Positions 3,529 to 33,224 of a DNA stretch of 37,084 nucleotides are shown one piece after another; position 1 is the first letter of the stretch; each line of letters opens with the position of its first letter. Where the stretch lies: NCBI GenBank assembly GCA_027452045.1, contig DAIDHH010000180.1, positions 1 through 37,084 on the forward strand. The letters run 5' to 3'. Under the pieces are notes generated by a model, which saw only the letters and a list, made by a program, of their open reading frames with translations, had not been told where the DNA came from and ran no database searches. A program made the position numbers and the translations under genes. This DNA comes from Gammaproteobacteria bacterium. Its GTDB lineage: Bacteria > Pseudomonadota > Gammaproteobacteria > Steroidobacterales > Steroidobacteraceae.

Positions 3529-3579
3529 TGCTGTCTCCTTCCCGAAGAACCGGGAGAGTGGTTCCTGTACCGGAAACAA

Positions 3580-3595
3580 TGCAATTGCCACGCCA
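3580..3595 (-). promoter_or_regulatory. Sigma-54 promoter of PEP-CTERM gene 1
   Basis: Minus-strand TGGCGTGGCAATTGCA fits the -24/-12 consensus TGGCACG-N4-TTGCW with correct spacing. The -12 GC is about 53 nt from the ATG. Confidence 0.85.
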
Positions 3596-3658
3596 AGCGC
3601 AAATTCAGGCGGTAAATCAAGTCAGAGCGAGGGAAGAGGGATTATGTCAAATGCCATA

Positions 3659-3675
3659 TGTAAAGACGCCCGACG
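3659..3675 (-). promoter_or_regulatory. 17-bp upstream activator motif, PEP-CTERM gene 1
   Basis: Plus-strand TGTAAAGACGCCCGACG, centred 73.5 bp upstream of the -24 GG. Proposed PrsR site; the assignment to PrsR is inference. Confidence 0.65.
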
Positions 3676-3700
3676 CGCAGGCAGAAGCTGGGCCGGAAAC

Positions 3701-3729
3701 GAGAACGGCCCCGCGAAGGGGCCGTTCTC
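3701..3729 (-). terminator. Terminator of PEP-CTERM gene 2
   Basis: Perfect 12-bp stem GAGAACGGCCCC/GGGGCCGTTCTC with a 5-nt loop. It is preceded by the GACACC-GAA-GGTGTC hairpin at 3732-3746, the same layout as after gene 1. Confidence 0.85.
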
Positions 3730-3763
3730 GGGACACCGAAGGTGTCTTAACTTGCCGAGTGCC

Positions 3764-4471
3764 TCAGTGCTGTCGCGCGCGGCGGCGCAGGAACAGCATG
3801 CAGCCAAGGAGTCCGGCGGCGAAGAGCGCGAGTGTGCCCGGCTCCGGCACCGAGGTGACGTCCTCCAGAATGACGTTATTCGAGCCGGTGCCGCCGTTTT
3901 GCGCCTGATTGGTTGCGTACGGATCGGAGATGACCAGCTCGCTGTAGCCGACAGGGACGGACCACATTGAGACCGTGTTGCTCCCATTGCCGGTTACCGA
4001 ATGCAGCACGTCCCAGTCGGTGCCGTCATAGCCCCAGACCGAGTACGTCTCTCCATTCTGCAGCGAGCCCACGGTCACGCTGGTGAAATAACCCTGACTG
4101 AGGAAGAGCCCGATGCCGTAAGGATTCGCGATCTCGTTGTTCCCATACGGATCATTGGTCAAGCCGAGTCCCTGTTCTCCGGTCCCGGAATTCTTGGCGA
4201 ACAGGCAGCATGAGCCTTCGTTCCACGAGTGAGCGCCGGTCTGAACGCCCGACCGGGCCTCCAGCGTGACCCCACCCTGCATGAAGGCCGCGTTTGCCGA
4301 TGCCGTACTCTGGGTCGACCACGGGGTGGTCCAGGTCTCACTTCCACCAGGTGCCGGCATTCCCGTCATGGTGTAGAAATTCCAGTCGATCGTGCCGGCC
4401 GACGCCGGGGTGAGGGTAGCGGCGCCGAGCAGGGCCGCGAGCGAGCAGAGAGCAGCGATCTTGAGTTTCAT
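3764..4471 (-). CDS. PEP-CTERM sorting-domain protein 2
   Basis: A 235-residue protein with signal peptide MKLKIAALCSLAALLGAATL and C-terminal SVPEPGTLALFAAGLLGC followed by FLRRRARQH. The body begins with DWNFYTMTGMPAPGG and carries GLGLTNDPYGNNEI, NPYGIGLFLS and GYSELVISDPY, making it the most divergent member of the paralog family with proteins 1, 4 and 6. It contains Cys-Cys in EGSCCLFAKNSG. GGAGTCAATC precedes the ATG. A sigma-54 promoter lies at 4516-4531. It is a predicted exosortase substrate destined for the cell envelope or EPS matrix; its molecular role is unknown. Confidence 0.93.
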   Translation of the reverse strand: MKLKIAALCSLAALLGAATLTPASAGTIDWNFYTMTGMPAPGGSETWTTPWSTQSTASANAAFMQGGVTLEARSGVQTGAHSWNEGSCCLFAKNSGTGEQGLGLTNDPYGNNEIANPYGIGLFLSQGYFTSVTVGSLQNGETYSVWGYDGTDWDVLHSVTGNGSNTVSMWSVPVGYSELVISDPYATNQAQNGGTGSNNVILEDVTSVPEPGTLALFAAGLLGCMLFLRRRARQH

Positions 4472-4515
4472 GATTGACTCCGGTTCCTTGCATCGGGCGA
4501 GTACCCATGGAAAGA

Positions 4516-4531
4516 AGCAACTTCCGGGCCA
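4516..4531 (-). promoter_or_regulatory. Sigma-54 promoter of PEP-CTERM gene 2
   Basis: Minus-strand TGGCCCGGAAGTTGCT, with -24 GG and -12 GC correctly spaced. The -12 GC lies about 46 nt from the ATG. Confidence 0.85.
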
Positions 4532-4594
4532 GACAAATCTTCCTTCACATAATCAAGCGCTTGTCGCGCGCACGCCGTGTTCCAGAATGCGCCT

Positions 4595-4611
4595 TGTAAA
4601 GGATTCCGACG
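4595..4611 (-). promoter_or_regulatory. 17-bp upstream activator motif, PEP-CTERM gene 2
   Basis: Plus-strand TGTAAAGGATTCCGACG, centred 73.5 bp upstream of the -24 GG, the same distance as for gene 1. It differs by one base from the copy at 8687-8703. Confidence 0.65.
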
Positions 4612-4697
4612 TCAAACCGCGAGGGATCCTGACTCTCCTTGGATTTCCCTCCGGGCGTCGCCCAACTCAACACGGGCGCCCGCGCACACCCCTGAAA

Positions 4698-4727
4698 CGA
4701 GAACGGCCCCTCACGGGGCCGTTCTCG
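4698..4727 (-). terminator. Terminator of PEP-CTERM gene 3
   Basis: Perfect 13-bp stem CGAGAACGGCCCC/GGGGCCGTTCTCG with a 4-nt loop, followed by TTTCAGG on the minus strand. Confidence 0.85.
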
Positions 4728-4761
4728 CGACACGTTGTTGGTGGTGTCGGGTGTGTCGGAA

Positions 4762-5484
4762 TCAGCCCTGCCGGATGCGACGGCGCAGGGCGAAGCCGAG
4801 GCCCGCGAGGCCCACGGCGAAAAGCGCAAGGGTCGCGGGCTCTGGGACCGTGCCGGAGCCCTCGTAGAGCGCTCCGCTGTTGGCCGTTGCGATCCAATCC
4901 GTGGTGCATTTGTCATGCTTGCAGTCCTTGACTCCGAGGAAGCCAACGACCACCGACCCGAGATCGAGCGAGCCCACATTGAGATCCGGGCCCGAGCCGG
5001 CGCCGCCCGCCAGGGTGTTGGTGCCGAGATCCGCCTGGAACACGTAGTAGCCGGTCGCCGCGGGGTCGTCATGCTGAGTGACGGGCAGCCACGCGCCGAT
5101 GGGATTGTTCGGCGAGGCCGAGAATCCCGAGAATCCCGAGGAGGCCAGATACGCGTCCAGCGCGCCGCTGCTCCACCCCGAGCCGATTTCAGTGGCGGTC
5201 ACAGCGCCATTGACGCCGCCCGTGACGTTGAAACCGGACGGCAGCATGTAGTTGTTGGGCACCAGAATGTCGATCCACAAATCCCCGGTCGAGGGTCCGG
5301 AAGCCGCCCAGAAGCCGAAATTCGGCGAGCTGGCGGTCGTCGGCGTGACGACGCCGTTGTCGCTGCACGCGGGGGTCGGGCTGTAGCAGAACGCGTGAAG
5401 CGCTGCCGCCGAGGCCGAGAAGGACCACAGGAGGCCGGTGGCTGCGGCCACGCCGATCCAGGCTGCTTTCATTGATCTGACCAT
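4762..5484 (-). CDS. PEP-CTERM sorting-domain protein 3 (unrelated body)
   Basis: A 240-residue secreted protein. The N-terminus MVRSMKAAWIGVAAATGLLW is a signal peptide ending near ASAAA. The C-terminus has VPEPATLALFAVGLAGLGF and the basic tail RRRIRQG. The body differs from the other array members: it has Cys residues near the N-terminus (AFCYSPTPACSDNG), a stretch of DLWIDILVPNNYMLPSGF, and KDCKHDKCTTDW, so disulphides are likely. No family is recognised by eye. The start at 5484 follows AGGAG with a 10-nt gap; ATG 5472 is an alternative. The upstream in-frame extension to 5724 is rejected because it runs through the promoter and activator motif. Confidence 0.9.
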   Translation of the reverse strand: MVRSMKAAWIGVAAATGLLWSFSASAAALHAFCYSPTPACSDNGVVTPTTASSPNFGFWAASGPSTGDLWIDILVPNNYMLPSGFNVTGGVNGAVTATEIGSGWSSGALDAYLASSGFSGFSASPNNPIGAWLPVTQHDDPAATGYYVFQADLGTNTLAGGAGSGPDLNVGSLDLGSVVVGFLGVKDCKHDKCTTDWIATANSGALYEGSGTVPEPATLALFAVGLAGLGFALRRRIRQG

Positions 5485-5540
5485 GATGCGCACTCTCCTA
5501 TGTGGTACGGGGCCCAGCGGGGGCGGTGTGCCGTTAGTAA

Positions 5541-5556
5541 TGCAAGTCACGTGCCG
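5541..5556 (-). promoter_or_regulatory. Sigma-54 promoter of PEP-CTERM gene 3
   Basis: Minus-strand CGGCACGTGACTTGCA matches the consensus GGCACG-N4-TTGCA except for the first T. The -12 GC is about 58 nt from the ATG. Confidence 0.82.
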
Positions 5557-5652
5557 GAATTGGGCGCAATCTATTACTTGAAGGATAATCAAGGGCCTGT
5601 GGCAGGCCAGGCCCCTGCCTTGAGCATTCGGCCGGGCTGGAATCCGAATTTT

Positions 5653-5669
5653 TGTCAAAGTTTTCGACG
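5653..5669 (-). promoter_or_regulatory. 17-bp upstream activator motif, PEP-CTERM gene 3
   Basis: Plus-strand TGTCAAAGTTTTCGACG, centred 106.5 bp upstream of the -24 GG. That is 33 bp farther than in genes 1 and 2, about three helical turns. Confidence 0.55.
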
Positions 5670-5747
5670 CTCGCGACCCGCTATTCGCGAGAGCGGTCGG
5701 GTCTCGGATTGAGGCCTCGAGCACCCCGGATCAGGGCCCGCAAACAA

Positions 5748-5771
5748 GAACGGCCCCGTGAGGGGCCGTTC
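5748..5771 (-). terminator. Terminator of PEP-CTERM gene 4
   Basis: Perfect 10-bp stem GAACGGCCCC/GGGGCCGTTC with loop GTGA, followed by TTGTTTG on the minus strand. A degenerate GACAC/GTGTC hairpin sits between it and the stop codon. Confidence 0.85.
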
Positions 5772-5814
5772 CAGAGAGACACCGAGAGTGTCGTCGCTTG
5801 GCCTGTCCTTTGGC

Positions 5815-6510
5815 TCAGTGCTGCCGCGCGCGGCGACGCAGGAAGAGCACGCAGCCGAGAAGGCCGGCGGCAAAGAGCGCCAGCGTGCCGGGCTCCGGCA
5901 CGGTCGTGATGCTCTCGAGCACGACGTCATTGGAGTTGATGTAGGGCGTGCTGCTCGGGTCCGAGATCACCAGCTGGCTGTAGCCGGCCAGGCTCGCCGA
6001 ATTGAAGTTCTCGGTGCCGCCGCCCATGCCATGGCCGAGCAGCGTCCACCCGGAGCCGTTGCTGCCGTAAATGGCCCAGGTCTCGCCGTTGGTGGCGCTG
6101 CCCTGGATCGAGCCGATGACCACATCGCTCGCGTGTCCCCCGGCCTTGCTCAAATCGAGGTAGATGCCGTTCGGGTAGTAGATCTCGTTGTCACCGGAAG
6201 GGTCGCCCGCCAACCCGAGACCCTGCTCGTTCGCCGAGCCGCCGTTCTTGACGTACAGGTCATTGCTCCCCGCGGTCCAAGCGCAGGTGCTCATCGACAC
6301 GCTGCAGCCCGGTGAGGTGTACGACTGGGCGAGCAGGCTGAACCCGTCCTGGCTGAACCATTGCTGGGTGCCCAGCTGGGTGCCGGGTTGCGCCGGGCTC
6401 CCCGCGAGCTGGTAGAAGTTCCAGTTGAGAGTGCCGGCCGAGGCCGGGAGGGTGGCGGCGGCTCCGAGCAGAGCGGCGGCCGAAAGAAGAGCGGCTATTT
6501 TGAGTTTCAT
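5815..6510 (-). CDS. PEP-CTERM sorting-domain protein 4
   Basis: A 231-residue protein with signal peptide MKLKIAALLSAAALLGAAAT and C-terminal TVPEPGTLALFAAGLLGC plus FLRRRARQH. The body carries the paralog signature: LNWNFYQLAGSPAQPG, GLGLAGDPSGDNEIYYPNGI, VVIGSIQGSATNGETWAIYG, LGHGMGGG and TPYINSNDVVL. Closest neighbours are proteins 1 and 6. A Cys pair sits in SPGCSVSMSTCAW. GGAGACTAGGA directly precedes ATG. It has its own sigma-54 promoter, activator motif and terminator, so it is a self-contained unit like the others. Confidence 0.93.
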   Translation of the reverse strand: MKLKIAALLSAAALLGAAATLPASAGTLNWNFYQLAGSPAQPGTQLGTQQWFSQDGFSLLAQSYTSPGCSVSMSTCAWTAGSNDLYVKNGGSANEQGLGLAGDPSGDNEIYYPNGIYLDLSKAGGHASDVVIGSIQGSATNGETWAIYGSNGSGWTLLGHGMGGGTENFNSASLAGYSQLVISDPSSTPYINSNDVVLESITTVPEPGTLALFAAGLLGCVLFLRRRARQH

Positions 6511-6557
6511 TCCTAGTCTCCAGACTCAGTGTCGGGGTAGTGCCCCGACTGACATGA

Positions 6558-6573
6558 AGCAATTTCCGGGCCA
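6558..6573 (-). promoter_or_regulatory. Sigma-54 promoter of PEP-CTERM gene 4
   Basis: Minus-strand TGGCCCGGAAATTGCT, the same as the promoter of PEP-CTERM gene 6. The -12 GC is about 49 nt from the ATG. Confidence 0.87.
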
Positions 6574-6635
6574 TTTATAATTCTCTTTAGAAATCAATGC
6601 ATTGACGTTGAATTCGCATTATGTTCAGCATCGAC

Positions 6636-6652
6636 TGTAAGAGAAATCGACG
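6636..6652 (-). promoter_or_regulatory. 17-bp upstream activator motif, PEP-CTERM gene 4
   Basis: Plus-strand TGTAAGAGAAATCGACG, centred 72.5 bp upstream of the -24 GG. Confidence 0.62.
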
Positions 6653-6672
6653 CCGGATGCAGCCGGCCGATC

Positions 6673-6726
6673 GGCGCCCGAGCGGGCGCCAAGCACAGAA
6701 CGGCCCCACGAGGCGGCCGTTCGTGC
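6673..6726 (-). terminator. Tandem terminator hairpins of PEP-CTERM gene 5
   Basis: The first stem (6693-6726) is a diverged copy of the array terminator, GAACGGCC/GGCCGTTC extended by GCAC/GTGC with one bulged A. A second perfect 8-bp hairpin GGCGCCCG-AG-CGGGCGCC (6673-6690) follows on the minus strand. Confidence 0.75.
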
Positions 6727-6741
6727 GAGAGCGCTCAGGGG

Positions 6742-7515
6742 TCAGTGCGGCATGCCTGCCTTCGAAGTCCGGACGCGCCTCATGCGCCGCCGCGCGATGA
6801 GCAGCGCGCCGCCGATGAGGCCGGCGGCAAAGAGCGCGAGCGTCGCGGGCTCGGAAACGCTGCTTCCCGCCTTCACGGCCACGATGTCGCCGCCATTTTT
6901 TCCCGGGGCGCAGGGGCCATTGCCCCCGATCAGCGAGCAGATGTTGGAGGCAAAGTAGAATCGGTCACCGTTCGCCATGAAATCGCTCACGCTCGCGTTA
7001 TCGATCGTGAAGCTGAGCGCTCCGGTGTAGGGGTGGCTGCCGCCCGGGCCGCACGCGCCCCAGCGGCAGGTGAGCGCAAAGTCCCATTCGCCCGTCCCGC
7101 CAGCGCCCTCTCCCGGGAGGACGCCGCCCTCGGCGTTGTCGACCGTCCAGCCACCGGCACTCTGGGTGCCGCCGACCACCGAGAACCCGGGCGTGAGGCC
7201 CGAGATGGACAGCGAGGGGTTGCTCATGTTCCAGAGCAATGACGCACCGGCACCCGTGTCCCCGAAGCCCTCGTTCGGGGTCAGGGCCACCGTGACCAGG
7301 ACATCGGGGCCGCTTCCGGTCAGCGTGACCGTGCCGTAGTGCAGAGTCGGCAGAGCGGTTCCCGAGCCCATGCGAGGGGCCAGGTCGTAGGTCAGGGTGC
7401 TCGCCTCGGCGCGTGGCACGAGGGTGAGGAGCGAGGCGGCGGCCGCCATCGCGAACAGCCTGAGCGGGCTCGGTGTCAGGTTGGATTTTCGGGCCATGGG
7501 GTTGGACGGTGTCAT
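6742..7515 (-). CDS. PEP-CTERM-like protein 5 with SEP in place of PEP
   Basis: A 257-residue secreted protein with a long signal region containing LFAMAAAASLLTLVPRAEAS. The sorting signal reads VSEPATLALFAAGLIGGALL, so Ser replaces the first Pro. The tail is unusually long after the hydrophobic helix: RRRMRRVRTSKAGMPH. The body (TYDLAPRMGSGTALPTLHYG, SISGLTPGFSVVGG, and four Cys in LTCRWGACGPGG and NICSLIGGNGPC) is unrelated to the other array proteins and no family is recognised. The start is ATG 7515 after AAGGAGACTGTG; a GTG at 7518 is possible. This is the only array gene with no convincing sigma-54 promoter or 17-bp motif upstream, so it is probably regulated differently. Confidence 0.87.
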   Translation of the reverse strand: MTPSNPMARKSNLTPSPLRLFAMAAAASLLTLVPRAEASTLTYDLAPRMGSGTALPTLHYGTVTLTGSGPDVLVTVALTPNEGFGDTGAGASLLWNMSNPSLSISGLTPGFSVVGGTQSAGGWTVDNAEGGVLPGEGAGGTGEWDFALTCRWGACGPGGSHPYTGALSFTIDNASVSDFMANGDRFYFASNICSLIGGNGPCAPGKNGGDIVAVKAGSSVSEPATLALFAAGLIGGALLIARRRMRRVRTSKAGMPH

Positions 7516-7627
7516 CACAGTCTCCTTAGCGGCCAGGGCGCCGCTGATGGTCGTCGGGAACGGGCGTCATGCCAGCGCCTCTCTACCCCTTGCAAGAGAG
7601 CGCCTTCCATCCCTGGTCTGAACGCCT

Positions 7628-7645
7628 GGCGGGAAATCTCCCGCC
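7628..7645. other. Small hairpin upstream of PEP-CTERM gene 5
   Basis: Perfect 7-bp inverted repeat GGCGGGA-AATC-TCCCGCC, just beyond the gene 6 terminator on the minus strand. It may be a second terminator stem or an operator for gene 5. Confidence 0.45.
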
Positions 7646-7654
7646 TCGAAAACC

Positions 7655-7680
7655 GGAACGGCCCCGTGAGGGGCCGTTCC
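7655..7680 (-). terminator. Terminator of PEP-CTERM gene 6
   Basis: Perfect 11-bp stem GGAACGGCCCC/GGGGCCGTTCC with loop GTGA, followed by GGTTTTCG on the minus strand. A GACATCC/GGATGTC hairpin at 7684-7702 lies between stop and stem, matching the layout after genes 1 and 2. Confidence 0.86.
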
Positions 7681-7718
7681 AGGGACATCCGGGTGGGATG
7701 TCACAGCTCGCTCTGCCC

Positions 7719-8405
7719 TCAGTCCTGCCGGATGCGGCGCCGGCGGGAAATGAGGAGCGCACAACCGAGGAGGCCGGCGCCGAAGAGCGCGAGCGTGCCG
7801 GGCTCGGGCACGCTGGTGGTGGTGACGCCCATCAGGACGATGTCGTTCGAATTGAGGTAGGGCGTCGAGACCGGATCGGTGATGATCAGATCGCTGTAGC
7901 TGAGCAGGCTCGAGGCGGTGAAGTCCTCGGTGCTGCCCCCCATGCCGGAGCCGAGTTGGGTCCACGTGGTGCCGTCGTTGCTCCCGTAGACCGCCCAGGA
8001 TTCACCGTTCGTGGCGCTGCCCTGGAGCGAGCCGATCATCACGCCCGAGATGTGACCGGAGAACCCGGTGAGCTCGATCCCGTTGGGATAGAAGATCTCG
8101 TGATCCCCAGAGGGGTCACCCATCAAGCCCAGGCCGTCCTCCGAGACCGAGCCGCCATTCTTGGCGTACAGGTCCTCGGTCCCCATGGCCCAGCCCGAGC
8201 CGCTGCGCATCATCGAGTTGGCCGTGAGGGACATCGACCCCTGCGTGAAGGTGTAGCTGGTGCTCATGAGGCTCACACCCGGCTGCGCCGGGTTTCCCGC
8301 CAGCGAGAGAAAATTCCAGCTCATCGTCCCGGCAAAGGCCGGGGCCGAGGCTGCGGCAACTCCCAATAACGCCGCCGAACAGACCGCCGCAAATTTGGAT
8401 TTCAT
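7719..8405 (-). CDS. PEP-CTERM sorting-domain protein 6
   Basis: A 228-residue protein with signal peptide MKSKFAAVCSAALLGVAAAS ending near AFAG. The C-terminus is SVPEPGTLALFGAGLLGCAL plus the basic tail RRRRIRQD. The body shows the family signature: MSWNFLSLAGNPAQPG, GLGLMGDPSGDHEIFYPNGI, MIGSLQGSATNGESWAVYGS, LGSGMGGS and TPYLNSNDIVL. It differs from protein 4 in lacking the Cys pair. AGGAGTCAAGAC precedes ATG. It is the first gene of the minus-strand array and shares a 385-bp divergent intergenic region with the NHL lipoprotein gene. Confidence 0.93.
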   Translation of the reverse strand: MKSKFAAVCSAALLGVAAASAPAFAGTMSWNFLSLAGNPAQPGVSLMSTSYTFTQGSMSLTANSMMRSGSGWAMGTEDLYAKNGGSVSEDGLGLMGDPSGDHEIFYPNGIELTGFSGHISGVMIGSLQGSATNGESWAVYGSNDGTTWTQLGSGMGGSTEDFTASSLLSYSDLIITDPVSTPYLNSNDIVLMGVTTTSVPEPGTLALFGAGLLGCALLISRRRRIRQD

Positions 8406-8458
8406 GTCTTGACTCCTAAGCCATCAATAGCAGGCACTTCTCGGCCCGATGAACCGAC

Positions 8459-8474
8459 AGCAATTTCCGGGCCA
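8459..8474 (-). promoter_or_regulatory. Sigma-54 promoter of PEP-CTERM gene 6
   Basis: Minus-strand TGGCCCGGAAATTGCT; the -12 GC is about 55 nt from the ATG. Confidence 0.87.
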
Positions 8475-8535
8475 GGCACTATTTTGCTTTTAGAACATAG
8501 ACTTACGACACAATTGCCGTCTTGACATAAGTCTC

Positions 8536-8552
8536 CGTAAATTAACCCGACG
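8536..8552 (-). promoter_or_regulatory. 17-bp upstream activator motif, PEP-CTERM gene 6
   Basis: Plus-strand CGTAAATTAACCCGACG, centred 71.5 bp upstream of the -24 GG. Confidence 0.62.
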
Positions 8553-8686
8553 ATGCGGGACGGCGGCAGCGGCGATCTGTCGCCGAGCTGTGACACGGTT
8601 CACTTCAAGTGTCGCCGCGGGCCATCAGAATGGGTTCGCGTGCGGGCCGTTGTCGCCGTTCGCCATCGGGTTTCGTGCTCACGGGA

Positions 8687-8703
8687 TGTAAAAGATTCCG
8701 ACG
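8687..8703. promoter_or_regulatory. Extra copy of the 17-bp activator motif in the divergent region
   Basis: Plus-strand TGTAAAAGATTCCGACG differs by one base from the copy upstream of gene 2. It lies 222.5 bp from the gene 6 -24 element and 96 bp before the NHL gene ATG. No correctly spaced sigma-54 element faces the NHL gene, so it may be a second distal site for gene 6 or may act on the NHL gene in another way. Confidence 0.5.
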
Positions 8704-8790
8704 ATTGCACGCTGCTCAGCTGAAGCGTTCAGCTGGCAGTCAGCGGGGCGAGCCCATACTGTGTCTAAAGCGTACCAAGGGAGGTCTCTC

Positions 8791-10455
8791 ATGCGTGTTC
8801 CCGCACTCCACCATGCAGTGCTGCGTGGCGGCTATCGGACTCTTTTAGCCCTCTGCGTGCTCTCCCTCGCCGCCTGCGGTGGAGGAGGAAGCAGTGGCGG
8901 TAGTGGCAGCGGCGGCGGCACGGGTGGTGGCACGACCAGCTCCTTCACGATCGGCGGCACCGTCACCGGGCTCAATGCCTCCGGTCTCGTGCTCACCGAC
9001 AACGGGGGAGACAACCTCACAGTGCCCTCCGGATCGAGCACGTTCACCTTCGCAACCAAGCTCTCGAGCGGGGCGACCTACAGTGTGGCCGTGGGTACCC
9101 AGCCGACCGGCGAGACCTGCTCCGTGAGCAATGCAACGGGCACGGCCATGGCCAACGTGACCACGGTCACTGTGTCCTGCCAGGTCGCCACCTTCACCGT
9201 CGCGGGCACGATCACCGGTCTCTCCAATGCGGGATTGCAGCTGCTCGATTACTCGGGCGGGGAAACGCTTGCGGTCAGCGCCGGCAAGACGAGTTATCAG
9301 TTCACCCAGCCCGTGCCCTATAACACCCAGGTCCACGTGACCGTGGTGGCACAGCCGTCCCTCGAGACCTGCACCGCTGGTGCGTCCAATTTCAACGGAC
9401 CGATCACCGCCAATGTCACCTCGGACACCTTCAGCTGCACCACTCTCACGGCGACGGTGAGCACCTTCGCGGGCTCGACCGTGGCGGGCAACGTCAATGG
9501 CACGGGACCGGCCGCCAGCTTCAATGGCCCCATTGGTGTTGCGGTCGACTCCTCGGGCAACCTGTACGTGGCGGACAGCGCCAACAATGAGATCCGACTG
9601 ATCACCCCCGCGGGAGTCGTGACCACGCTCGCCGGCACGGGCACCGCCGGTTTCGTCGACAATACGACGGGTAATTTGGCTGCTTTCAACTATCCGACCG
9701 GGGTGACGGTGGACGCCTCGGGCAACATCTACGTGGCTGATTTCTACAACAACCGGATCCGCAAGATCGTGTGCACGAGCCTCGTGGCGAGCGCCTGCAC
9801 CGTCACGACGCTCGCCGGACAGACCTCGGCCGGGTCTCTTGACGGCACGGGCGCCGCCGCCCAATTCAACCAGCCGAGTGGCGTGGCGGTGGATTCCTCC
9901 GGCAACGTCTATGTGGCCGACAGCGCCAACAACGAGATCCGCAAGATCACCCCCGCCGGCGTGGTGACGACCATCGCGGGCTCGACCACCGCGGGCAGTG
10001 CGAATGGCTCGGGTACCTCGGCATCGTTCAACAAGCCCTCCGGCGTGGCGGTGGATTCCTCCGGCAACGTCTACGTCGCGGATTTCTTGAACAACGAGAT
10101 CCGCATGATCAATGCCTCGGACGTCGTGAGCACCCTGGCGGGCCAGACCACGGCGGGCAACACGAACGGTACCGGGAGTGCGGCCCAGTTCCACGGACCC
10201 AATGACGTGGCGGTGGATGCCGCGGGCAACGTGTATGTGGCCGATTCCGTCAACAATGAGATCCGCTTGGTCGCACCGACGGGCCTGGTGAGCACGCTCG
10301 CGGGCACGGGTGCGCAGGGCGCCGTGAACGGCGCGGCAACGACCGCCACGTTCTACAGCCCGAGCGGCCTTGCGGTGGTGACCTCCGGCAGTGCCGCCGG
10401 GCAGGTTTTCGTGGGGGATCTCGGCAACAACGAGATCCGCGAGATCGCGCCCTGA
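8791..10455 (+). CDS. NHL-repeat beta-propeller lipoprotein
   Basis: A 554-residue surface lipoprotein. Residues 1-32 are a signal with lipobox LSLAAC, followed by a Gly/Ser linker. Two similar beta-rich modules follow (TIGGTVTGLNASGLVLTDN and TVAGTITGLSNAGLQLLDY, each ending in a Cys-containing TVSCQ or TFSCT). From about residue 245 there are six NHL repeats of the form GVAVDSSGNVYVADSANNEI, separated by linkers such as VVTTLAGTGTAG. Six repeats are enough to close one six-bladed propeller. The last blade has an insertion and reads GLAVVTSGSAAGQVFVGD. Such propellers usually bind proteins or carbohydrates; the ligand is unknown. The start at 8791 is set by AAGGGAGG; an upstream GTG at 8761 is rejected. 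Confidence 0.9.
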   Translation: MRVPALHHAVLRGGYRTLLALCVLSLAACGGGGSSGGSGSGGGTGGGTTSSFTIGGTVTGLNASGLVLTDNGGDNLTVPSGSSTFTFATKLSSGATYSVAVGTQPTGETCSVSNATGTAMANVTTVTVSCQVATFTVAGTITGLSNAGLQLLDYSGGETLAVSAGKTSYQFTQPVPYNTQVHVTVVAQPSLETCTAGASNFNGPITANVTSDTFSCTTLTATVSTFAGSTVAGNVNGTGPAASFNGPIGVAVDSSGNLYVADSANNEIRLITPAGVVTTLAGTGTAGFVDNTTGNLAAFNYPTGVTVDASGNIYVADFYNNRIRKIVCTSLVASACTVTTLAGQTSAGSLDGTGAAAQFNQPSGVAVDSSGNVYVADSANNEIRKITPAGVVTTIAGSTTAGSANGSGTSASFNKPSGVAVDSSGNVYVADFLNNEIRMINASDVVSTLAGQTTAGNTNGTGSAAQFHGPNDVAVDAAGNVYVADSVNNEIRLVAPTGLVSTLAGTGAQGAVNGAATTATFYSPSGLAVVTSGSAAGQVFVGDLGNNEIREIAP

Positions 10456-10505
10456 GCGAGCAGCGCGCCGCTCGCCCGGACACTCAACACCGGCATTAGC
10501 GTCAA

Positions 10506-10544
10506 GAGGGTCGCGGCGGGCATCTCCTGCCCGCCGCGACCCTC
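10506..10544 (+). terminator. Long perfect hairpin after the NHL lipoprotein gene
   Basis: Perfect 17-bp inverted repeat (10506-10522 with 10528-10544) around loop TCTCC. It lies 50 bp past the stop codon. There is no T-run, so it may act as a stem-only terminator or an mRNA-stabilising structure. Confidence 0.75.
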
Positions 10545-10647
10545 GCGGTGACGCCTTTCAGCCGGGCCTTGCAGCCCTGCGGGTCACCGGCGTGCTGCCG
10601 AGCACTCGATTCCGGCAATCTTCACAGCCGTGCATTAAGATCGCCCG

Positions 10648-12723
10648 GTGCTCGGGTACCTCCTCTCGACCCTCGCCTATGCGGCGCTGCTCGCAGCGTC
10701 CCTGACGCTTTGGCGGCGCCGCCTCACCGGCTCCGGTCTCGCGACGGCGCTCGGCGCCCAGGTTGGCTGGTCCCTGGTGCTCACGGCGCAGGCGCGCGGC
10801 ATTCCCTTCCCCTTGGGACTTGGGATCGCTGCGGAGTACCTGCGCGATCTCGCCTGGATGCTCGTGCTGGTGCGCTGCCTCGGGCGTTCGCAAGCCTCGC
10901 GGGTGGCGCATATCGTGCAGCGGGCGCTCGTGGTGCTCGTGGCGCTGGTGGTCCTCGGCGCGATCGGTACCGTGCTGCCGGGCGGTCCGGGGGCGATGGC
11001 GCGTCAGGTCGAGCGGTACTGGCTATGGGGGTCCTTCATCCTCGCCATCGCGGGCCTGATGCTCGTCGAGCAGGTGGCGCGCAATACCCGCGCCACGCAG
11101 CGCTACGCGCTCAAGTACGTGTGGCTCGCCCTCGGGGCGCTCTTTGCCTGGGACCTTTGCCTTTTCTCCATCGCGATGTTGCGCGGCAGTTTCGCCGAGG
11201 TCTTCTGGGTGGACCGCGGCATCGTCAATGCGGCGCTGGCGGGGCTTCTCGCGGTGGGCCTGAGCCGCATCCCGGAGTGGGAGTCGGCGGCCTTTCTCTC
11301 CCCGCGCATCGTCTTCTTCAGCGCGACGCTGCTCGGGGCGGCGCTCTACGCCCTCGTCATGGCGCTCGGCAGCTTTCTCATCCGCCGGCTCGGGGGGTCC
11401 TGGGGCGCGGCCGGGCAGATGCTGTTCCTCGCAGCCGGCACGCTGGTGCTCGCCGTGGCGGCGCTCTCGGAGCAGTTCCGCGCCTGGTCGCGGGTAACCA
11501 TCGCCAAGTATCTCTTTCCATACCGCTACGACTATCGCAGCGAGTGGCAGAAGCTCACCCGCGCGCTCTCGGTGGGGGGCGACACGCCGATCTACGATCG
11601 CATCGCCAAGGTCATGGCGGGCTTCATGAGCTCCCCCTACGGGGGGCTGTGGCTGCGGGACGCCGAGGGAGCCTATGCGCCGGTGGGCGGGGATCTCGCC
11701 CCGCCTTCGGCGCCGCTCGAGAGCGGTCACGCGCCGTTCTTCGACTACCTGCTCGCCCACGAGTGGATCTGCGACCTCGAGGAGGCGCGCCATCCGCACC
11801 GCGGCAAGCCCGCACTGACCCCCCCGGAATGGATGATCGCCAATGCGCGCCTGTGGCTCGTCGTGCCGCTCATCTGCGAGAGCGCGCTGGTCGGGTTCGT
11901 GGTCGTCGGCCAGCCGCTCGCCGCGGTGCGCCTCTCCTGGGAGGAGCTCGACCTGCTTCGGGCCGCGGGACGCCAGGTGGCGAGCTTCCTCGCCTTCGAG
12001 CAGGCCGCCAAGCGCCTCGCCGAGGCGCATCAGTTCGAGGCGATGAGCCGCCTCTCGGCGGTGCTCATGCATGACCTGAGGCACCTGATCGCCCAGCAGG
12101 CACTCGTCGTTGAGAACGCGGCGCGCCATCGCGGCAACCCGGAGTTCTTCGACGATGCGATCCTCACCATCGACAACTCCGTCAAGCGCATGACCCGCCT
12201 CATGGATGAGCTCAGAAGCGGCGTGCTCACCGAGCAGAACCGCCGGGTGGAGCTCGGGGAGCTGTGCGCCGAGGCCATCCGTCGCTGCTCCGGGAAACCC
12301 GTCCCGGCGCTCGAGGTGCGCGAGCGCGGCGAGGTCGTCCTCAACCGCGAGCGGCTCTTGCAGGTGCTCGAGCATCTCATCCGCAATGCCCAGGAGGCGA
12401 CACCGCCGGACGGATCGGTTACCGTACGGCTCCAAAAGACCGGCCAGCATGCGCTCATCGAAGTGATCGATACCGGCAGCGGCATGGACGAGGAGTTCGT
12501 GCGCCACCGGCTGTTCCGCCCCTTCGAGACCACCAAGGGCGAGCGGGGGTTCGGGATCGGCGCCTACCAGGCGCGCGAGTTCGTCCGCAAGTGCGGCGGC
12601 ACCATCGAGGTCGAGAGCCGCTTGGGCCGCGGGACGCGATTCATGCTGCGCCTGCCGCTCGCGCCGGCGCTCACGACCTCGACTGCTACGGAAGGAGAAC
12701 AACTTGGACTCGAAGCCAACTAG
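10648..12723 (+). CDS. prsK: PEP-CTERM system sensor histidine kinase PrsK
   Basis: A 691-residue membrane sensor kinase. The N-terminal ~280 residues contain about eight hydrophobic helices. A GAF-like region follows (about 310-460), then the kinase: H-box LMHDLRHLIAQQ with phospho-acceptor His475, N-box HLIRNAQEATP, G1 DTGSGMDEEF, F-box FRPFETTKG and G2 GFGIGAYQAREFV. Length and order match PrsK (TIGR02916). The signal sensed is unknown. It should phosphorylate PrsR, whose gene overlaps its 3' end by 20 nt. The start is GTG 10648 with only a weak upstream AAGA. In known systems PrsK/PrsR genes accompany exosortase A loci and, from memory of work on floc-forming Zoogloea, act with RpoN on PEP-CTERM gene expression. 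Confidence 0.93.
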   Translation: MLGYLLSTLAYAALLAASLTLWRRRLTGSGLATALGAQVGWSLVLTAQARGIPFPLGLGIAAEYLRDLAWMLVLVRCLGRSQASRVAHIVQRALVVLVALVVLGAIGTVLPGGPGAMARQVERYWLWGSFILAIAGLMLVEQVARNTRATQRYALKYVWLALGALFAWDLCLFSIAMLRGSFAEVFWVDRGIVNAALAGLLAVGLSRIPEWESAAFLSPRIVFFSATLLGAALYALVMALGSFLIRRLGGSWGAAGQMLFLAAGTLVLAVAALSEQFRAWSRVTIAKYLFPYRYDYRSEWQKLTRALSVGGDTPIYDRIAKVMAGFMSSPYGGLWLRDAEGAYAPVGGDLAPPSAPLESGHAPFFDYLLAHEWICDLEEARHPHRGKPALTPPEWMIANARLWLVVPLICESALVGFVVVGQPLAAVRLSWEELDLLRAAGRQVASFLAFEQAAKRLAEAHQFEAMSRLSAVLMHDLRHLIAQQALVVENAARHRGNPEFFDDAILTIDNSVKRMTRLMDELRSGVLTEQNRRVELGELCAEAIRRCSGKPVPALEVRERGEVVLNRERLLQVLEHLIRNAQEATPPDGSVTVRLQKTGQHALIEVIDTGSGMDEEFVRHRLFRPFETTKGERGFGIGAYQAREFVRKCGGTIEVESRLGRGTRFMLRLPLAPALTTSTATEGEQLGLEAN

Positions 12724-14065
12724 GCTGCTGGTCGTCGAGGACGATCCGGGCCTGCAACGCCAGTTGAAGTGGGCGCTCGACACCTACGAGGTCGAGTGCG
12801 CCTCGAACCGCGCCGAGGCGCTCGCGGCCGTGCGCCGCTTCGAGCCGCCCATCGTGCTGCAGGATCTGGGGTTGCCTCCGGATCCCGACGGGGTGGAGGA
12901 GGGCTTCGCCACCATCACCGAGGTGCTGCGCATCGCGCCGGCCACCAAGATCATCGTCGTCACCGGACGCGAGGGCCGGGAGCACGCGCTGCGGGCCATT
13001 GGACTTGGCGCCTATGACTTCTGCCAGAAGCCGGTCGATACCCAGGTGCTCTCCCTCATCATCGATCGAGCGCGGCGCATCCACGAGCTCGAGGAGGAGA
13101 ACCGCCGTCTCGCGGGCGATTCCTCGATGGCCATCGAGGGGGTCATCGCGGCGAGCGAGTCGATGCTCAAGGTCTGCCGCCTCGTGCAGAAGCTCGCGCC
13201 CACCCAGGCGACGGTGCTGCTGCTCGGGGAGAGCGGCACGGGCAAGGAGCGCCTTGCGCAGGGGCTGCATGCCTTGGGCGCCCGCGCCGGACAGCCCATG
13301 GTCGCGATCAACTGCGCTGCCATCCCCGAGAACCTGCTCGAGAGCGAGCTCTTCGGCTACGAGCGCGGCGCCTTCACCGGCGCGGTCAAGCAGACCAAGG
13401 GCAAGATCGAGATGGCCGATGGCGGCACGCTCTTTCTCGATGAGATCGGCGACATGCCGCTCGCCCTGCAGGCGAAGCTCCTGCGCTTCCTGCAGGAGCG
13501 GGTGATCGAGCGCGTGGGCGGCCGGGAGTTGATCCAGGTGGACGTGCGCATCATCGCCGCCACCCATCGGGACCTGAAGGCGGCGATCGGCGAGAAGACC
13601 TTCCGCGAGGACCTCTTCTACCGCATCAGCGAGGTGGCGGTGCTCATCCCGCCGCTGCGCGAGCGCGGCTCGGATGCGGTGCTGATCGCCAACTATCTCC
13701 TGCAGCAGGCCTGCAAGCGCCACGGGAAACCCGCGCTCAAGCTCGGGCCCGACGCCATCAGCGCCATCGAGAACTATCCCTGGCCGGGGAACGTGCGCGA
13801 GCTCGAGAACAAGGTGAACGCGGCCGCCATCATGGCCGAGGGAAAGCTCGTCACGGCGGAGGACCTGACGCTCGATGCCGAGGCCGCCGAGGGCGAGGCG
13901 GGCATCCTGCCGCTGCGCGAAGTGCGCCAGAGGGCCGAGACCGCGGCCGTGCAGCGGGCGCTTGCCATCACGAGCGGCAACATCTCGAAGGCGGCGGAGC
14001 TCCTCGGCGTGACGCGCCCGACCCTCTACGACCTCTTGGGACGGACCGGGGCGGCGCCGAAATAG
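12704..14065 (+). CDS. prsR: PEP-CTERM system sigma-54 response regulator PrsR
   Basis: A 453-residue NtrC-type activator. The receiver domain (about 1-125) has the phospho-acceptor Asp54 in [12 protein letters not shown]. The central AAA+ domain has Walker A GESGTGKE (175-182), the sigma-54 contact loop GAFTGA (222-227) and Walker [14 protein letters not shown]. The C-terminus is a Fis-type helix-turn-helix, [20 protein letters not shown]. It should hydrolyse ATP to open sigma-54 promoters, eight of which are predicted in this window. The start is TTG 12704, preceded by GGAAGGAG at good spacing; a rare start inside the prsK 3' end suggests translational coupling. The 3' 130 bp are copied twice downstream. 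Confidence 0.95.
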
Positions 14066-14079
14066 GGGAGGGCGAGCCG

Positions 14080-14334
14080 CTATTCGAGGACCCAGCGACC
14101 GGTGCGCTGGATCTCATCATGCATGGCGTCCGGGGCGAGATCGAGCTCTTCAGGCCAGGTGACGACGCCATCGACCAGGCGAACCCCCTCGAAGGCATGT
14201 TGGTCCATCAGGTGCGAAAAGACGCCTTGAAAGAAGGACGGCTTGAATCGAATCTCACCCTGAACGCCATCGCGGAACCGCACGAACAGTGTGTGCGGAG
14301 CGCTCACCTCCACGCTCACCACATCCCAGTTCAC
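14080..14334 (-). CDS. DUF2442 protein
   Basis: An 84-residue protein with the DUF2442 pattern: NWDVVSVEVSAPHTLFVRFR, GVQGEIRFKP, then a C-terminal VVTWPEELDLAPDAMHDEI. Function is not established; the family is commonly paired with DUF4160, and the pair has been suggested to be toxin-antitoxin-like. It starts at GTG 14334 four nt after the DUF4160 stop, with GGAG in the upstream coding end, so the two form an operon. It is convergent with prsR, whose stop is 14 bp away. Confidence 0.8.
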   Translation of the reverse strand: MNWDVVSVEVSAPHTLFVRFRDGVQGEIRFKPSFFQGVFSHLMDQHAFEGVRLVDGVVTWPEELDLAPDAMHDEIQRTGRWVLE

Positions 14335-14338
14335 GACA

Positions 14339-14599
14339 TTACTCCAGCGGTTGAATCGATTTTGGCCGGTGCTTCAGTCGGCACAGCTCCCAATCCTCGA
14401 GCAGCTCACCTCGATGCGCCCGGCCCCACTCCCGCACCAGGGAGGCCGCACGGTGCGGCAGCCTTCCCTGGATGACATCCAGAGTCTGGATGTCGACCAC
14501 GGCCTTGTATTCACCATACTTTACATGAAAGTGCGCTGGTCCCTGATCGTTGTAGAACATCTGAATCAGAATTCCATAAAAGGTGCAAATGGTGGGCAC
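14339..14599 (-). CDS. DUF4160 protein
   Basis: An 86-residue protein with the DUF4160 signature PTICTFYGILIQMFYND, then PAHFHVKYGEYKAVVDIQT and LVREWGRAHRGELLEDW. The start is GTG 14599 after GAGGAATCCACC; the longer open frame to 14695 has no homology. First gene of a two-gene operon with DUF2442. The pair sits between prsR and the partial prsR copies, as if inserted there. Biochemical activity is unknown. Confidence 0.82.
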   Translation of the reverse strand: MPTICTFYGILIQMFYNDQGPAHFHVKYGEYKAVVDIQTLDVIQGRLPHRAASLVREWGRAHRGELLEDWELCRLKHRPKSIQPLE

Positions 14600-14667
14600 G
14601 GTGGATTCCTCGGCGCGTGATGGTCCACGGGAATGCCTGAAACGGGGACGTCGCGGCTGGCCGGCGC

Positions 14668-14982
14668 GTGGCGGAACCGGATCTCTCGCAGTCATCGGGT
14701 GACCAGGGGAAAGAGTCTCCGCGCACGCGCGGCGAAGAGCATCGGGGCGATGGTGCGCGTCTGTGGAATTATGGGAAGGCTCGCGAGCGTCCGGACACCG
14801 CCACCGTGCAACGGGCGCTTGCCATCACGGGAGGCAATCTCTCGAAGGCGGCGGCGCCTCTCAGAGTCACCCGCCCGACCCTCTACGACCTCTTGGGACG
14901 GACCGGGGTGGCGCCGAAACAGGTGTCGCGGTTTCTTACACAGGCGAACGCCCGTCCGCATGAATGGCTCGTAACCCATTGA
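14668..14982 (+). pseudogene. Fragment of prsR 3' end (remnant HTH)
   Basis: Only about 14797-14919 resembles a known protein: [20 protein letters not shown] and [18 protein letters not shown], nearly identical in DNA to the end of prsR. The HTH core is damaged (AELLGV became APLRV). The prsR stop codon TAG is CAG here, so the frame reads on to 14982 into the upstream motif of the next operon. No ribosome site is seen and the first 40 codons have no homology. It looks like a partial duplication rather than a working gene. Confidence 0.7.
14924..14940 (+). promoter_or_regulatory. 17-bp upstream activator motif, orphan HTH operon
   Basis: TGTCGCGGTTTCTTACA is the reverse-complement form of the array motif, as expected for a plus-strand gene. 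It is centred exactly 73.5 bp upstream of the -24 GG of the promoter at 15004. It overlaps the tail of the prsR fragment. Confidence 0.62.
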
Positions 14983-15003
14983 TCGGGTAGGGGCGCAAGA
15001 GCC

Positions 15004-15019
15004 TGGCACAGCCCTTGCT
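15004..15019 (+). promoter_or_regulatory. Sigma-54 promoter of the orphan HTH operon
   Basis: TGGCACAGCCCTTGCT matches the -24/-12 consensus in both elements with correct spacing. Transcription should begin near 15030, giving a leader of about 150 nt before the first start codon. Confidence 0.83.
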
Positions 15020-15179: not shown

Positions 15180-15281
15180 ATGTCCGTCAAAATCGCTATC
15201 CGCCCGGCAGTGCCTCTTGCGGCCGCGAGCCTCCTCGCACTGAGCGTCAACAGAGGCAGGCGAGGACGCGGAGTGCTATGA
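15180..15281 (+). CDS. 33-residue signal-peptide-like ORF
   Basis: Encodes 33 residues with a basic start and hydrophobic core, MSVKIAIRPAVPLAAASLLA, then a basic end RGRRGRGVL. GGGAG lies 8 nt before the ATG. The stop overlaps the next ATG (ATGA), suggesting coupling. The start of the protein recalls the signal peptides of the PEP-CTERM array (MKLKIAALLSAAALLGAA). It may be the remaining 5' end of a PEP-CTERM gene that was replaced by the HTH gene, a leader peptide, or a small membrane protein. Confidence 0.45.
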   Translation: MSVKIAIRPAVPLAAASLLALSVNRGRRGRGVL

Positions 15282-15529
15282 GGGTGGGGGCGCGTAAACC
15301 GGTTCCGTCCGAGGGCCTGAGGCAGAACGTCCAGGCGCTCGATGATCAACTCGAGAGCCGCATTCTGCCGCTGCGTGAGGTGCGCCAGAGAGCCGAAGCC
15401 GCCGCGGTCCGGGAGGCGCTCGCCCTCACCGGCGGCAACATCTCCCGGGCGGCCGAGCTCCTCGGCGTGACGCGCCCGACGCTCTATGACCTCATGGAGC
15501 GCATCGCCCGACGGGCGCCGAACAAGTAA
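15278..15529 (+). CDS. Stand-alone PrsR-type helix-turn-helix protein
   Basis: An 83-residue protein equal to the DNA-binding end of PrsR without receiver or AAA+ domain. After a short unrelated start it reads [20 protein letters not shown], then [20 protein letters not shown] and LYDLMERIARRAPNK. Residues that define the PrsR Fis-type HTH are intact. GGAG lies 4 nt before ATG, and the ATG overlaps the stop of the 33-residue ORF. It is expressed from a predicted sigma-54 promoter with the same upstream motif as the PEP-CTERM genes. A protein with the binding domain alone could occupy PrsR sites without activating, acting as feedback inhibitor; this is inference. Confidence 0.75.
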   Translation: MRVGARKPVPSEGLRQNVQALDDQLESRILPLREVRQRAEAAAVREALALTGGNISRAAELLGVTRPTLYDLMERIARRAPNK

Positions 15530-16349: not shown

Positions 16350-16764
16350 CGGCGGTATCGCCTTGGGATCCTCGGTGTTGTGAGGGGAATGCGAGGACCC
16401 CTTTATCTTGATGCGCACTCTAGCAGCTCACCCCATCTGTCGCAATATGGCGTCATTACATATTGCGCTGGAATTTGGCTGCTTTGCGCGCAATTGAGCC
16501 TCGTCGGTCCGGCGCCGCCGAGAGTCGAACGAGCCTCGGCATCGCGCGGCGGCATTCTGTCAACTCGCGCCGAGCTTCTGTCTCATCGACCGGTGTTATG
16601 TTGGATTGTGTCAGGCGCCGATGACACGGCAAATTGCGGTATTTCACGCAGTGACATTCTTGGTCACCTGCTGACCGCCTTCGGCACCGTAGCCGCGACA
16701 GTATGGATTTCGCGGTAAATTCAGCGTGTTGCATAGCCCAGTGGTTGTGACAGGTGAGCTGCAC

Positions 16765-16855: not shown

Positions 16856-16871
16856 TGGCACGCTGGTTGCA
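16856..16871 (+). promoter_or_regulatory. Sigma-54 promoter of FnIII lipoprotein 1
   Basis: TGGCACGCTGGTTGCA is a perfect match to the -24/-12 consensus. The -12 GC is about 104 nt from the ATG. Confidence 0.9.
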
Positions 16872-17684: not shown

Positions 17685-17929
17685 TCTTGCGAGCGGCGCG
17701 CCGCGCGCCGGCTGCGGTTCGCTCGGCGACGGTGAGCGCGTCCAAGGCGCTCTTGCGGAAACTACCTACGGCGTGTTGGTTTGTCCCTAGTGAGGCAAGT
17801 CCTGTGCCGCTTCACGTGTTGACATTCCGGGTCACCCGCTGACGCGGCCCGGCAGCGTAACCGCGGCCGCAGTGCTTTCAGCGGCGATTCATGCGCTTGC
17901 AGCGCCTACCCGCAGTGCAGTCACAACTT

Positions 17930-18022: not shown

Positions 18023-18038
18023 TGGCATGCAAGTTGCT
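18023..18038 (+). promoter_or_regulatory. Sigma-54 promoter of FnIII lipoprotein 2
   Basis: TGGCATGCAAGTTGCT matches the -24/-12 consensus with correct spacing. The -12 GC is about 106 nt from the ATG, nearly the same as for copy 1. Confidence 0.88.
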
Positions 18039-18908: not shown

Positions 18909-19294
18909 ATCGATTAAAGAGGTGAACCTGAACCCGACCTGAATCGAACGGCATAAGTAAGAAGGGGGCGGCCCGATCCGCGAGGGCTCGAGGCGCACCC
19001 GGACCGGGCACGAATTGCGACGTGGTTCCGTGCGATGCCCCACCTATTACGGTCAAATTCCCTCCAGGCCACCGTTTCGTGGCGGGGTGCTCCCGTCCGC
19101 AAACTGGTAACATAATCAACGAATAGCATCGGCACGCTCGGGGTGTCGGTTGTCCCCGATCGGCTACGGGATTGCGGCAGTCTTTGACCAGCCGGTATCC
19201 TCGCGCCCTGCGCTGCACACCATGGACGCGCCGCGCCCCACGGTTTGTCGCCGTGGCGAGAGGACTACCCACTGCGCCTGTGGAGAAACGAAGC
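18909..19294. other. Leader region of prsT and the EPS operon
   Basis: About 390 bp with no supported gene. This should carry the main promoter of prsT and perhaps the EPS operon. I see no sigma-54 element with correct spacing and no 17-bp motif. A GCCAC-CGTTTC-GTGGC inverted repeat near 19066-19081 could be an operator. Confidence 0.45.
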
Positions 19295-33076: not shown

Positions 33077-33224
33077 GCTGCTCCGGCACCTGCGGACGGC
33101 GGCCGTTCCGCCGCAACGCTCATCCAACGCTTCAGTATCCCATTTTGTACCATAGCCGGATGCGCGGCCAGACCGCCGTTGGCCGTAGAATCCATTTTGC
33201 GACGCGCATCAGGAATATCAGGCC

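Follow-up and report, generated by a model that had tools for sequence, protein, structure and literature searches.

The window analysed here, a stretch of 37,084 nucleotides from a Gammaproteobacteria bacterium of the family Steroidobacteraceae (contig DAIDHH010000180.1, assembly GCA_027452045.1), carries seven copies of a 17-bp motif, YGTMAR-N6-CGACR, and raises the question of which protein reads this motif and how its reader reaches the sigma-54 promoters nearby. The motif itself is already known: it is motif 1, predicted in 2006 as the site of the activator PrsR. According to Haft et al. (PMC1569441), motif 1 is a 17-nt sequence that ends in TTTACA and precedes 99 of 167 PEP-CTERM genes of proteobacteria, at a mean of 62.8 nt (standard deviation (SD) 10.6, range 32-92) from a -24/-12 motif; it is sometimes repeated, and PrsR is predicted as its reader from a phylogenetic profile. 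The motifs of the window (PrsR boxes) are very probably PrsR enhancers of this kind, which would act with a bend made by integration host factor (IHF) and a sigma-54 promoter in a one-face geometry, and which probably also have a free PrsR DNA-binding domain (mini-PrsR) among their outputs. The computed part of this reading comprises the sites, their phasing, the bend element, the co-occurrence with PrsR and a selection signal in the mini-PrsR frame. The boxes and their predicted promoter elements are as follows.

3659..3675, minus strand: PrsR box CGTCGGGCGTCTTTACA (gene sense) for the PEP-CTERM gene 2824-3591
3615..3627, minus strand: IHF-like element CTCTGACTTGATT, score 7/9, 33 bp above the -24 GG
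3581..3595, minus strand: sigma-54 promoter TGGCGTGGCAATTGC
4595..4611, minus strand: PrsR box for the PEP-CTERM gene 3764-4471
4551..4563, minus strand: IHF-like element CAAGCGCTTGATT, score 9/9, 33 bp above the GG
4517..4531, minus strand: sigma-54 promoter TGGCCCGGAAGTTGC
5653..5669, minus strand: PrsR box for the PEP-CTERM gene 4762-5724, spacing 105.5 bp
5587..5599, minus strand: IHF-like element CAGGCCCTTGATT, score 8/9, 44 bp above the GG, counted by eye
5542..5556, minus strand: sigma-54 promoter CGGCACGTGACTTGC
6636..6652, minus strand: PrsR box for the PEP-CTERM gene 5815-6510
6592..6604, minus strand: IHF-like element CAATGCATTGATT, score 9/9, 32 bp above the GG
6559..6573, minus strand: sigma-54 promoter TGGCCCGGAAATTGC
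8536..8552, minus strand: PrsR box for the PEP-CTERM gene 7719-8405
8493-8505, minus strand: weak IHF-like element TAAGTCTATGTTC of the 8536 site, score 6/9, scored by eye
8460..8474, minus strand: sigma-54 promoter TGGCCCGGAAATTGC of the 8536 site
8687..8703, minus strand: second, distal PrsR box, without a promoter of its own
14924..14940, plus strand: PrsR box TGTCGCGGTTTCTTACA (gene sense), pointing to the mini-PrsR open reading frame (ORF)
14972..14984, plus strand: IHF-like element TAACCCATTGATC, score 8/9, 33 bp above the GG
15004..15018, plus strand: sigma-54 promoter TGGCACAGCCCTTGC

All seven copies are present at the coordinates and on the strands given by the initial annotation, whose observation of seven sites is confirmed, and the pattern has no further match in the window. 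When the window is replaced by 100 dinucleotide-preserving shuffles, the pattern occurs 0.33 times on average (SD 0.57, maximum 2), and none of the 100 shuffles reaches seven. When the window is scored with an external weight matrix, for which 142 sites from other genomes and none from this one were used, the seven sites take ranks 1-7 of the whole window with 15.0-23.6 bits, rank 8 scoring 9.9 bits; the 8687 box has the highest score among them. In the gene sense the boxes end in TTTACA (3/7), TTTACG (1/7), CTTACA (2/7) or TTGACA (1/7). A -24/-12 element lies downstream of six of the seven boxes, and the distance from box centre to -24 GG is 72.5 bp at 3659, 72.5 bp at 4595, 105.5 bp at 5653, 71.5 bp at 6636, 70.5 bp at 8536 and 72.5 bp at 14924. 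The six promoters claimed earlier are present, and each distance claimed with them is 1 bp lower here, a matter of counting convention. The promoter of the 5653 box reads CGGCAC-N5-TTGC; the frame listed for its gene, 4762-5724, begins upstream, and translation probably starts at an ATG on the downstream side of the promoter. The gap from box to TGG is 61-63 nt in five of the seven sites and 96 nt, just beyond the published range of 32-92, in one. No promoter lies at a comparable distance downstream of the 8687 box, for which no such gap can be given.

The assembly of this genome is 75% complete, consists of 198 contigs and contains ten PEP-CTERM tails (TIGR02595). Eight of these ten genes have a box and a promoter upstream on the same strand, of which five lie in the window and the remaining three on contigs 132, 165 and 154, one gene per contig; the box on contig 165 starts with A, hence outside the strict YGTMAR pattern, and that on contig 154 is spaced 115.5 bp from its promoter. 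Enrichment of box-promoter pairs at other PEP-CTERM genes of the genome, which the initial annotation had named as a check, is thus found, with three of the eight pairs outside the window. Two more pairs precede other genes, one at 14924 and the other on contig 119 (C119, L023:961-1197, minus strand), where a box and a sigma-54 promoter at 72.5 bp stand before a 78-aa frame without a Pfam match. The genes rpoN, ihfA and ihfB are all above cut-off in this genome.

That the pattern arises by chance or as an artefact of alignment is extremely improbable. The 17-mer alone shows no genome-wide enrichment, which is what such an origin would give: in its loose form it has 42 matches in this genome and 49 when the pattern is reversed, and it was dropped as a genome-wide signal by itself. 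Chance is opposed by the count in the window, by the independent matrix, by the pair counts with their controls and by the conservation of the sites, and the paired pattern already refutes it. The signal resides in the pairing of box and promoter, not in the 17-mer alone.

The predicted reader of the boxes is encoded in the window, as the initial annotation had stated.

12704..14065, plus strand: prsR, sigma-54 activator with Response_reg, Sigma54_activat and HTH_8 domains (TIGR02915, 673 bits, cut-off 502.6)

Box-promoter pairs track this activator across the class. Of 369 genomes of the class, 82 have a strict pair and 5 the reversed control (control counted by eye), and PrsR is present in 106. 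The pair is found in 70 of the 106 genomes with PrsR and in 12 of the 263 others (odds ratio 41, Fisher p about 1e-35), so that 70 genomes have both, 36 have PrsR only, 12 have the pair only and 251 have neither. A similar result is obtained with named loci. When 61 loci (L041-L101, 885 kb), which were picked by at least 48% identity to the PrsR of the window and not by a hidden Markov model (HMM), are searched, 35 pairs are found at 60-120 bp and one with the reversed motif; L101 is an exception among these loci, with 37% identity, and may not be PrsR. The dyad YGT-N11-ACR claimed for the box stands, and the box is in addition asymmetric: it points in one direction in all 35 pairs of the 61 loci and the window, and the opposite orientation is rejected at 0 vs 35. 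Exosortase-type tails are found in 71 of 125 complete ORFs downstream of boxes and in 11 of 271 control ORFs, as detected by a home-made regular expression rather than an HMM; a stricter pattern is found in 47 when all 140 downstream ORFs, incomplete ones included, are counted. The interpretation of the box as a predicted PrsR site upstream of sigma-54 promoters is supported, and the naming of PrsR as its reader is borne out as far as computation reaches.

That another sigma-54 activator with a similar Fis-type helix-turn-helix (HTH) reads the box, instead of PrsR or beside it, is quite improbable. The 12 of 82 pair-carrying genomes that lack PrsR above cut-off, a second look included, point in this direction: all 12 carry related activators with scores below cut-off, and 15 sites fetched from 11 of the 12 have the same helical phasing as described below (R 0.65), with the bend element in 8 of 15. 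The strong co-occurrence with PrsR, 70/106 vs 12/263, is against it. So is the state of several exceptions, which are incomplete (G343 85%, G215 77%) or carry fragments at contig edges; position by position, the fragments in G264 and G215 score like PrsR, no more than a suggestive sign. Furthermore, 19 loci whose activators are at most 43% identical to PrsR (L102-L120, 253 kb) give a single pair at 60-120 bp.

Two side observations concern the boxes of other genomes. Small proteins of about 115-119 aa, with FDFDxW/R near the N-terminus and no PEP-CTERM tail, are seen by eye directly behind PrsR-type boxes in L160, L162, L203, L204 and L222, and are candidates for further members of the regulon. 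Box variants with a changed fifth base, TGTC(A/T)G-N5-TTTACA, occur at L086:16617 (Ferrovum myxofaciens), L099:16639 and L230:588, with a spacing of 72.5 bp in two of the three and of 58.5 bp in the third.

The spacing between box centre and GG in the 142 sites from other genomes clusters at 61.5, 72.5, 83.5, 94.5 and 105 bp. A site lies at most 2 bp from a cluster in 129 of 142 cases; evenly spread sites would do so in about 5 cases out of 11. The Rayleigh R is 0.65 at a period of 10.5 bp and reaches its best value, 0.70, at 11.2 bp; when the positions are jittered by up to 6 bp, R is at most 0.34 in 500 trials, and when one site is taken from each of 48 families, the mean R is 0.67. This hints that the box has to lie on one defined face of the helix. 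The complex seems to need one face of the DNA, because box, bend site and promoter shift mostly by whole helical turns. Steps of whole turns could also yield the SD of 10.6 reported in 2006.

Between box and promoter lies an IHF-like element. It was first spotted as YAA-N4-TTGATW about 33 bp above the GG in 44 pairs from the named loci and this genome. The 142 sites serve as a second set, in which none is identical to a site among the first 44, although species may be shared between the sets. A motif search of these 142 sites free of prior assumptions returns TAACnnATTG(A/T)T, whose share is estimated at 0.77 and whose log-likelihood is 226, vs 52-64 in four shuffled sets; an element logo drawn from sequences chosen by score was set aside as partly circular, and the de novo search was used instead. 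A score of at least 7/9 at 31-35 bp is found in 67 of 142 sites, where 500 shuffles average 7 (maximum 16), and the controls at the same threshold and place give 5 (backwards), 14 (other strand) and 4 (complement). The distance from box to element is phased as well, at about 36, 46, 57 and 67 bp, with R 0.83 for the 42 sites that score at least 8/9, and a smaller second peak of the element lies one turn up, 42-46 bp above the GG. The seven loci of Sedimenticola, with a spacing of 61.5-62.5 bp, have no element at that place; in the class set 7 of 11 sites with this spacing carry it. In the window the score is 9/9 at 4551 and 6592, 8/9 at 14972 and 5587, 7/9 at 3615 and a weak 6/9 at the 8536 site; the 5653 site has a second match of equal score at 25 bp.

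TAACnnATTG(A/T)T is the reverse of WATCAR-N4-TTR, which is quoted as the Escherichia coli IHF consensus in PMC7962754 and PMC3897727. That the element is instead an extended part of the sigma-54 promoter or the site of another protein is unlikely. Its place is constant relative to the promoter in most sites, its N4 positions are partly constrained (C at position 4 in 57%), and it is present at sigma-54 promoters without a box too, all of which would suit a promoter part. Among 90 sigma-54-like sites without a PrsR box, 15 carry the element, as do 11 of 22 strong ones; 4 of the 15 turned out to have a near-box. The element as a PrsR-specific signal is ruled out by this control, and we read it as part of the promoter module, not as a signature of PrsR. 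Identification with an IHF site is favoured by the match to WATCAR-N4-TTR on the other strand, by the presence of ihfA and ihfB in the genome, by the second peak at 42-46 bp, which is unexpected for a promoter part, and by a flank that is richer in A/T toward the promoter than toward the box. An A/T-rich flank on the promoter-facing side is the arrangement characteristic of IHF. In addition, orp2 of Desulfovibrio vulgaris has an IHF site between promoter and activator site (PMC3897727).

Several results weigh against the reading of the boxes as PrsR enhancers that work with an IHF bend in helical register. The PEP-CTERM genes 6742-7518 and 15570-16418 have neither a box nor a convincing promoter in the stretches scanned, 36 of the 106 genomes with PrsR lack a strict pair, and 75 of the 142 sites lack a bend element of at least 7/9 at 31-35 bp. 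The best period is 11.2 rather than 10.5 bp per turn, without an explanation. The matches of the loose 17-mer, the genomes with a pair and no PrsR above cut-off, the Sedimenticola loci and the elements at promoters without a box, all given above, belong here as well.

The 14924 box points away from the row of PEP-CTERM genes, toward an 83-aa frame.

15278..15529, plus strand: mini-PrsR, 83-aa ORF
14776..14904, plus strand: further PrsR HTH copy, truncated and probably a remnant

Mini-PrsR consists of the Fis-type DNA-binding domain of PrsR, including its first helix, without receiver or AAA+ domain. As compared with the architecture of PrsR (TIGR02915), which has a receiver, a sigma-54 AAA+ domain and a Fis HTH, it matches only HTH_8 (40.9 bits), and by its domain content it is a fragment of PrsR and not a PrsR. 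Its surroundings are conserved in L042, a relative with 95% identity in PrsR: L042 keeps the order of box, 18-nt block, promoter and HTH frame, and the 18-nt block CGTAACCCATTGATCGGG, which contains the 14972 IHF-like element, is identical in both. Over 56 homologous codons the two mini-PrsR frames differ by 19 changes, which fall on the three codon positions as 4/2/13, with nonsynonymous divergence (dN) 0.043 and synonymous divergence (dS) 0.374. Both copies retain all 17 residues that are invariant across 16 aligned PrsR HTHs. This comparison, from a short stretch and one genome pair, suggests that mini-PrsR is a working protein. The frame that holds the truncated copy at 14776-14904 overlaps the 14924 box with its tail, and the counterpart of this copy in L042 is interrupted. 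HTH-only copies of PrsR as a general feature are rejected: in the sample of 147 genomes of the order, matches in frames below 271 aa are confined to this genome, and L042 is the only further case.

There is a somewhat less than even chance that mini-PrsR is a mere decaying duplicate and that the 14924 promoter has no product. The adjacent HTH copy, truncated here and interrupted in L042, the rarity of such frames in the order, the poor alignment of the 5' part of the mini-PrsR frame with L042, and its ribosome-binding and start sites, which are not established, agree with decay. The 13 of 19 changes at third positions, the low dN relative to dS, the 17 of 17 invariant residues in both copies, and the box, bend element and promoter conserved upstream in L042 argue for a working protein. 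If PrsR controls its production, the PrsR DNA-binding domain on its own would be a candidate competitor for the boxes. More speculatively, and with a probability well short of even, PrsR may limit its own regulon: the 14924 box and the 15004 promoter would produce the 83-aa DNA-binding domain, which would dimerise and block boxes without driving the sigma-54 polymerase, so that expression of PEP-CTERM genes becomes a pulse. Should the function of the boxes depend on helical register with an IHF bend, such a competitor without an AAA+ ring would shut off the whole set.

The inferred part of the joint reading, namely binding by PrsR and IHF, looping and feedback, would proceed as follows. PrsK is predicted to switch on PrsR, which would bind the box; the usual place of the box is about 72 bp above the -24 GG. 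About 33 bp above the GG, IHF probably binds YAA-N4-YTGATW, and the resulting bend in the DNA would let the PrsR ring meet sigma-54 RNA polymerase at the promoter. The output would be a set of PEP-CTERM surface proteins, and the 14924 site probably yields the PrsR consisting of the DNA-binding domain only, which could compete for boxes. The prediction of 2006 is upheld computationally in a new lineage and over 369 genomes. The register of box, IHF-like site and promoter, found in 48 families, tells what to mutate and by how many bases, and mini-PrsR offers a simple, testable idea of feedback for limiting PEP-CTERM surface proteins.

The nif and Pu promoters are IHF-assisted sigma-54 promoters. 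The present promoters differ from this group in having PrsR as predicted activator, in serving mostly PEP-CTERM genes and in a helical register that is seen in 48 families. A similar order of activator site, IHF site and -24/-12 promoter, with similar geometry, is found at orp2 of D. vulgaris, where the IHF site at -43 is needed for expression and the activator site lies at -88 (PMC3897727). All features of motif 1, namely the 17-nt site, its promoter distance, its PEP-CTERM targets and prsK, prsR and prsT in the same genome, recur here, whereas helical phasing, an IHF-like element and a PrsR made of the DNA-binding domain only are not mentioned in the part of PMC1569441 covered. The pepA gene of Aquincola tertiaricarbonis, described in 2023 as an RpoN1-dependent PEP-CTERM gene, has a mapped promoter, TGGCAC/CTGCTT, with the enhancer of 2006 upstream (PMC9850573). 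It resembles the present genes in enhancer and promoter, and differs in that the evidence is experimental, with neither a PrsR binding test nor IHF reported in that part of the paper. Fis has its origin in an NtrC-type DNA-binding domain (Morett and Bork 1998, cited in PMC7962754), and like mini-PrsR it is a free-standing Fis-type HTH split from a sigma-54 activator; mini-PrsR differs from Fis in being a recent, lineage-specific copy behind a PrsR box, for which no nucleoid role is suggested. The parts of PMC1569441, PMC9850573, PMC7962754 and PMC3897727 covered contain no PrsR binding test, and a literature search for PEP-CTERM with integration host factor gives matches only on other topics, as judged by titles and the beginnings of abstracts. 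The phasing, the IHF-like element and mini-PrsR are additions that are not found in the literature searched.

The 8687 box lies 151 bp upstream of the 8536 box in the same direction, and is identical at 17 of 17 positions in L042, within a stretch of 81% overall identity. It is read here as a second box in a distal place, such as Haft noted for Rhodospirillum rubrum. It may also be a relic of a lost promoter, or may act on the divergent NHL-repeat gene. No promoter toward this gene is seen in the surrounding sequence.

Further genes of the PEP-CTERM system in the window are as follows.

10648..12723, plus strand: prsK, histidine kinase (TIGR02916, 606 bits, cut-off 300)
19172..22087, plus strand: prsT, TPR lipoprotein (TIGR02917, 438 bits, cut-off 312)
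31514..33127, minus strand: exosortase (EpsH family) with a DUF3485 tail (PF09721, 156 bits)

The HTH copies are separated from prsR by a DUF2442/DUF4160 gene pair, 14080-14334 and 14339-14695 (both minus strand). Strong sigma-54 promoters of a second group lie downstream of prsR, at 16856-16870 and 18023-18037 (both plus strand) in the window and at L042:14531, L045:9073, L049:8608, L051:5058 and L052:2452, with a dyad at L060:11708; where tested, namely at the two in the window, these promoters precede genes for lipoproteins with putative-Ig/fn3 domains. A PrsR box is ruled out at the 16856 and 18023 promoters, with best scores of -25 and -17 bits. This second group has a dyad of its own, GTCTG-N6-CAGAC, with CCGAC in three loci. 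In eight cases the centre of this dyad is found 83-85 bp above the -24 GG, and seven of the eight have an IHF-like element of at least 7/9 at 31-33 bp; L041:7813 and L050:11927 are members with a partial match to the dyad only. GTCTG-N6-CAGAC looks like an enhancer of another activator with the same geometry. Second-group promoters share a further dyad, GTCACC-N3-TGAC, at a distance of 186-197 bp above the -24 GG; it is found at 17831-17843 (plus strand) in the window and at L031:2582, L042:14337, L045:8881, L052:2259 and L060:11596.

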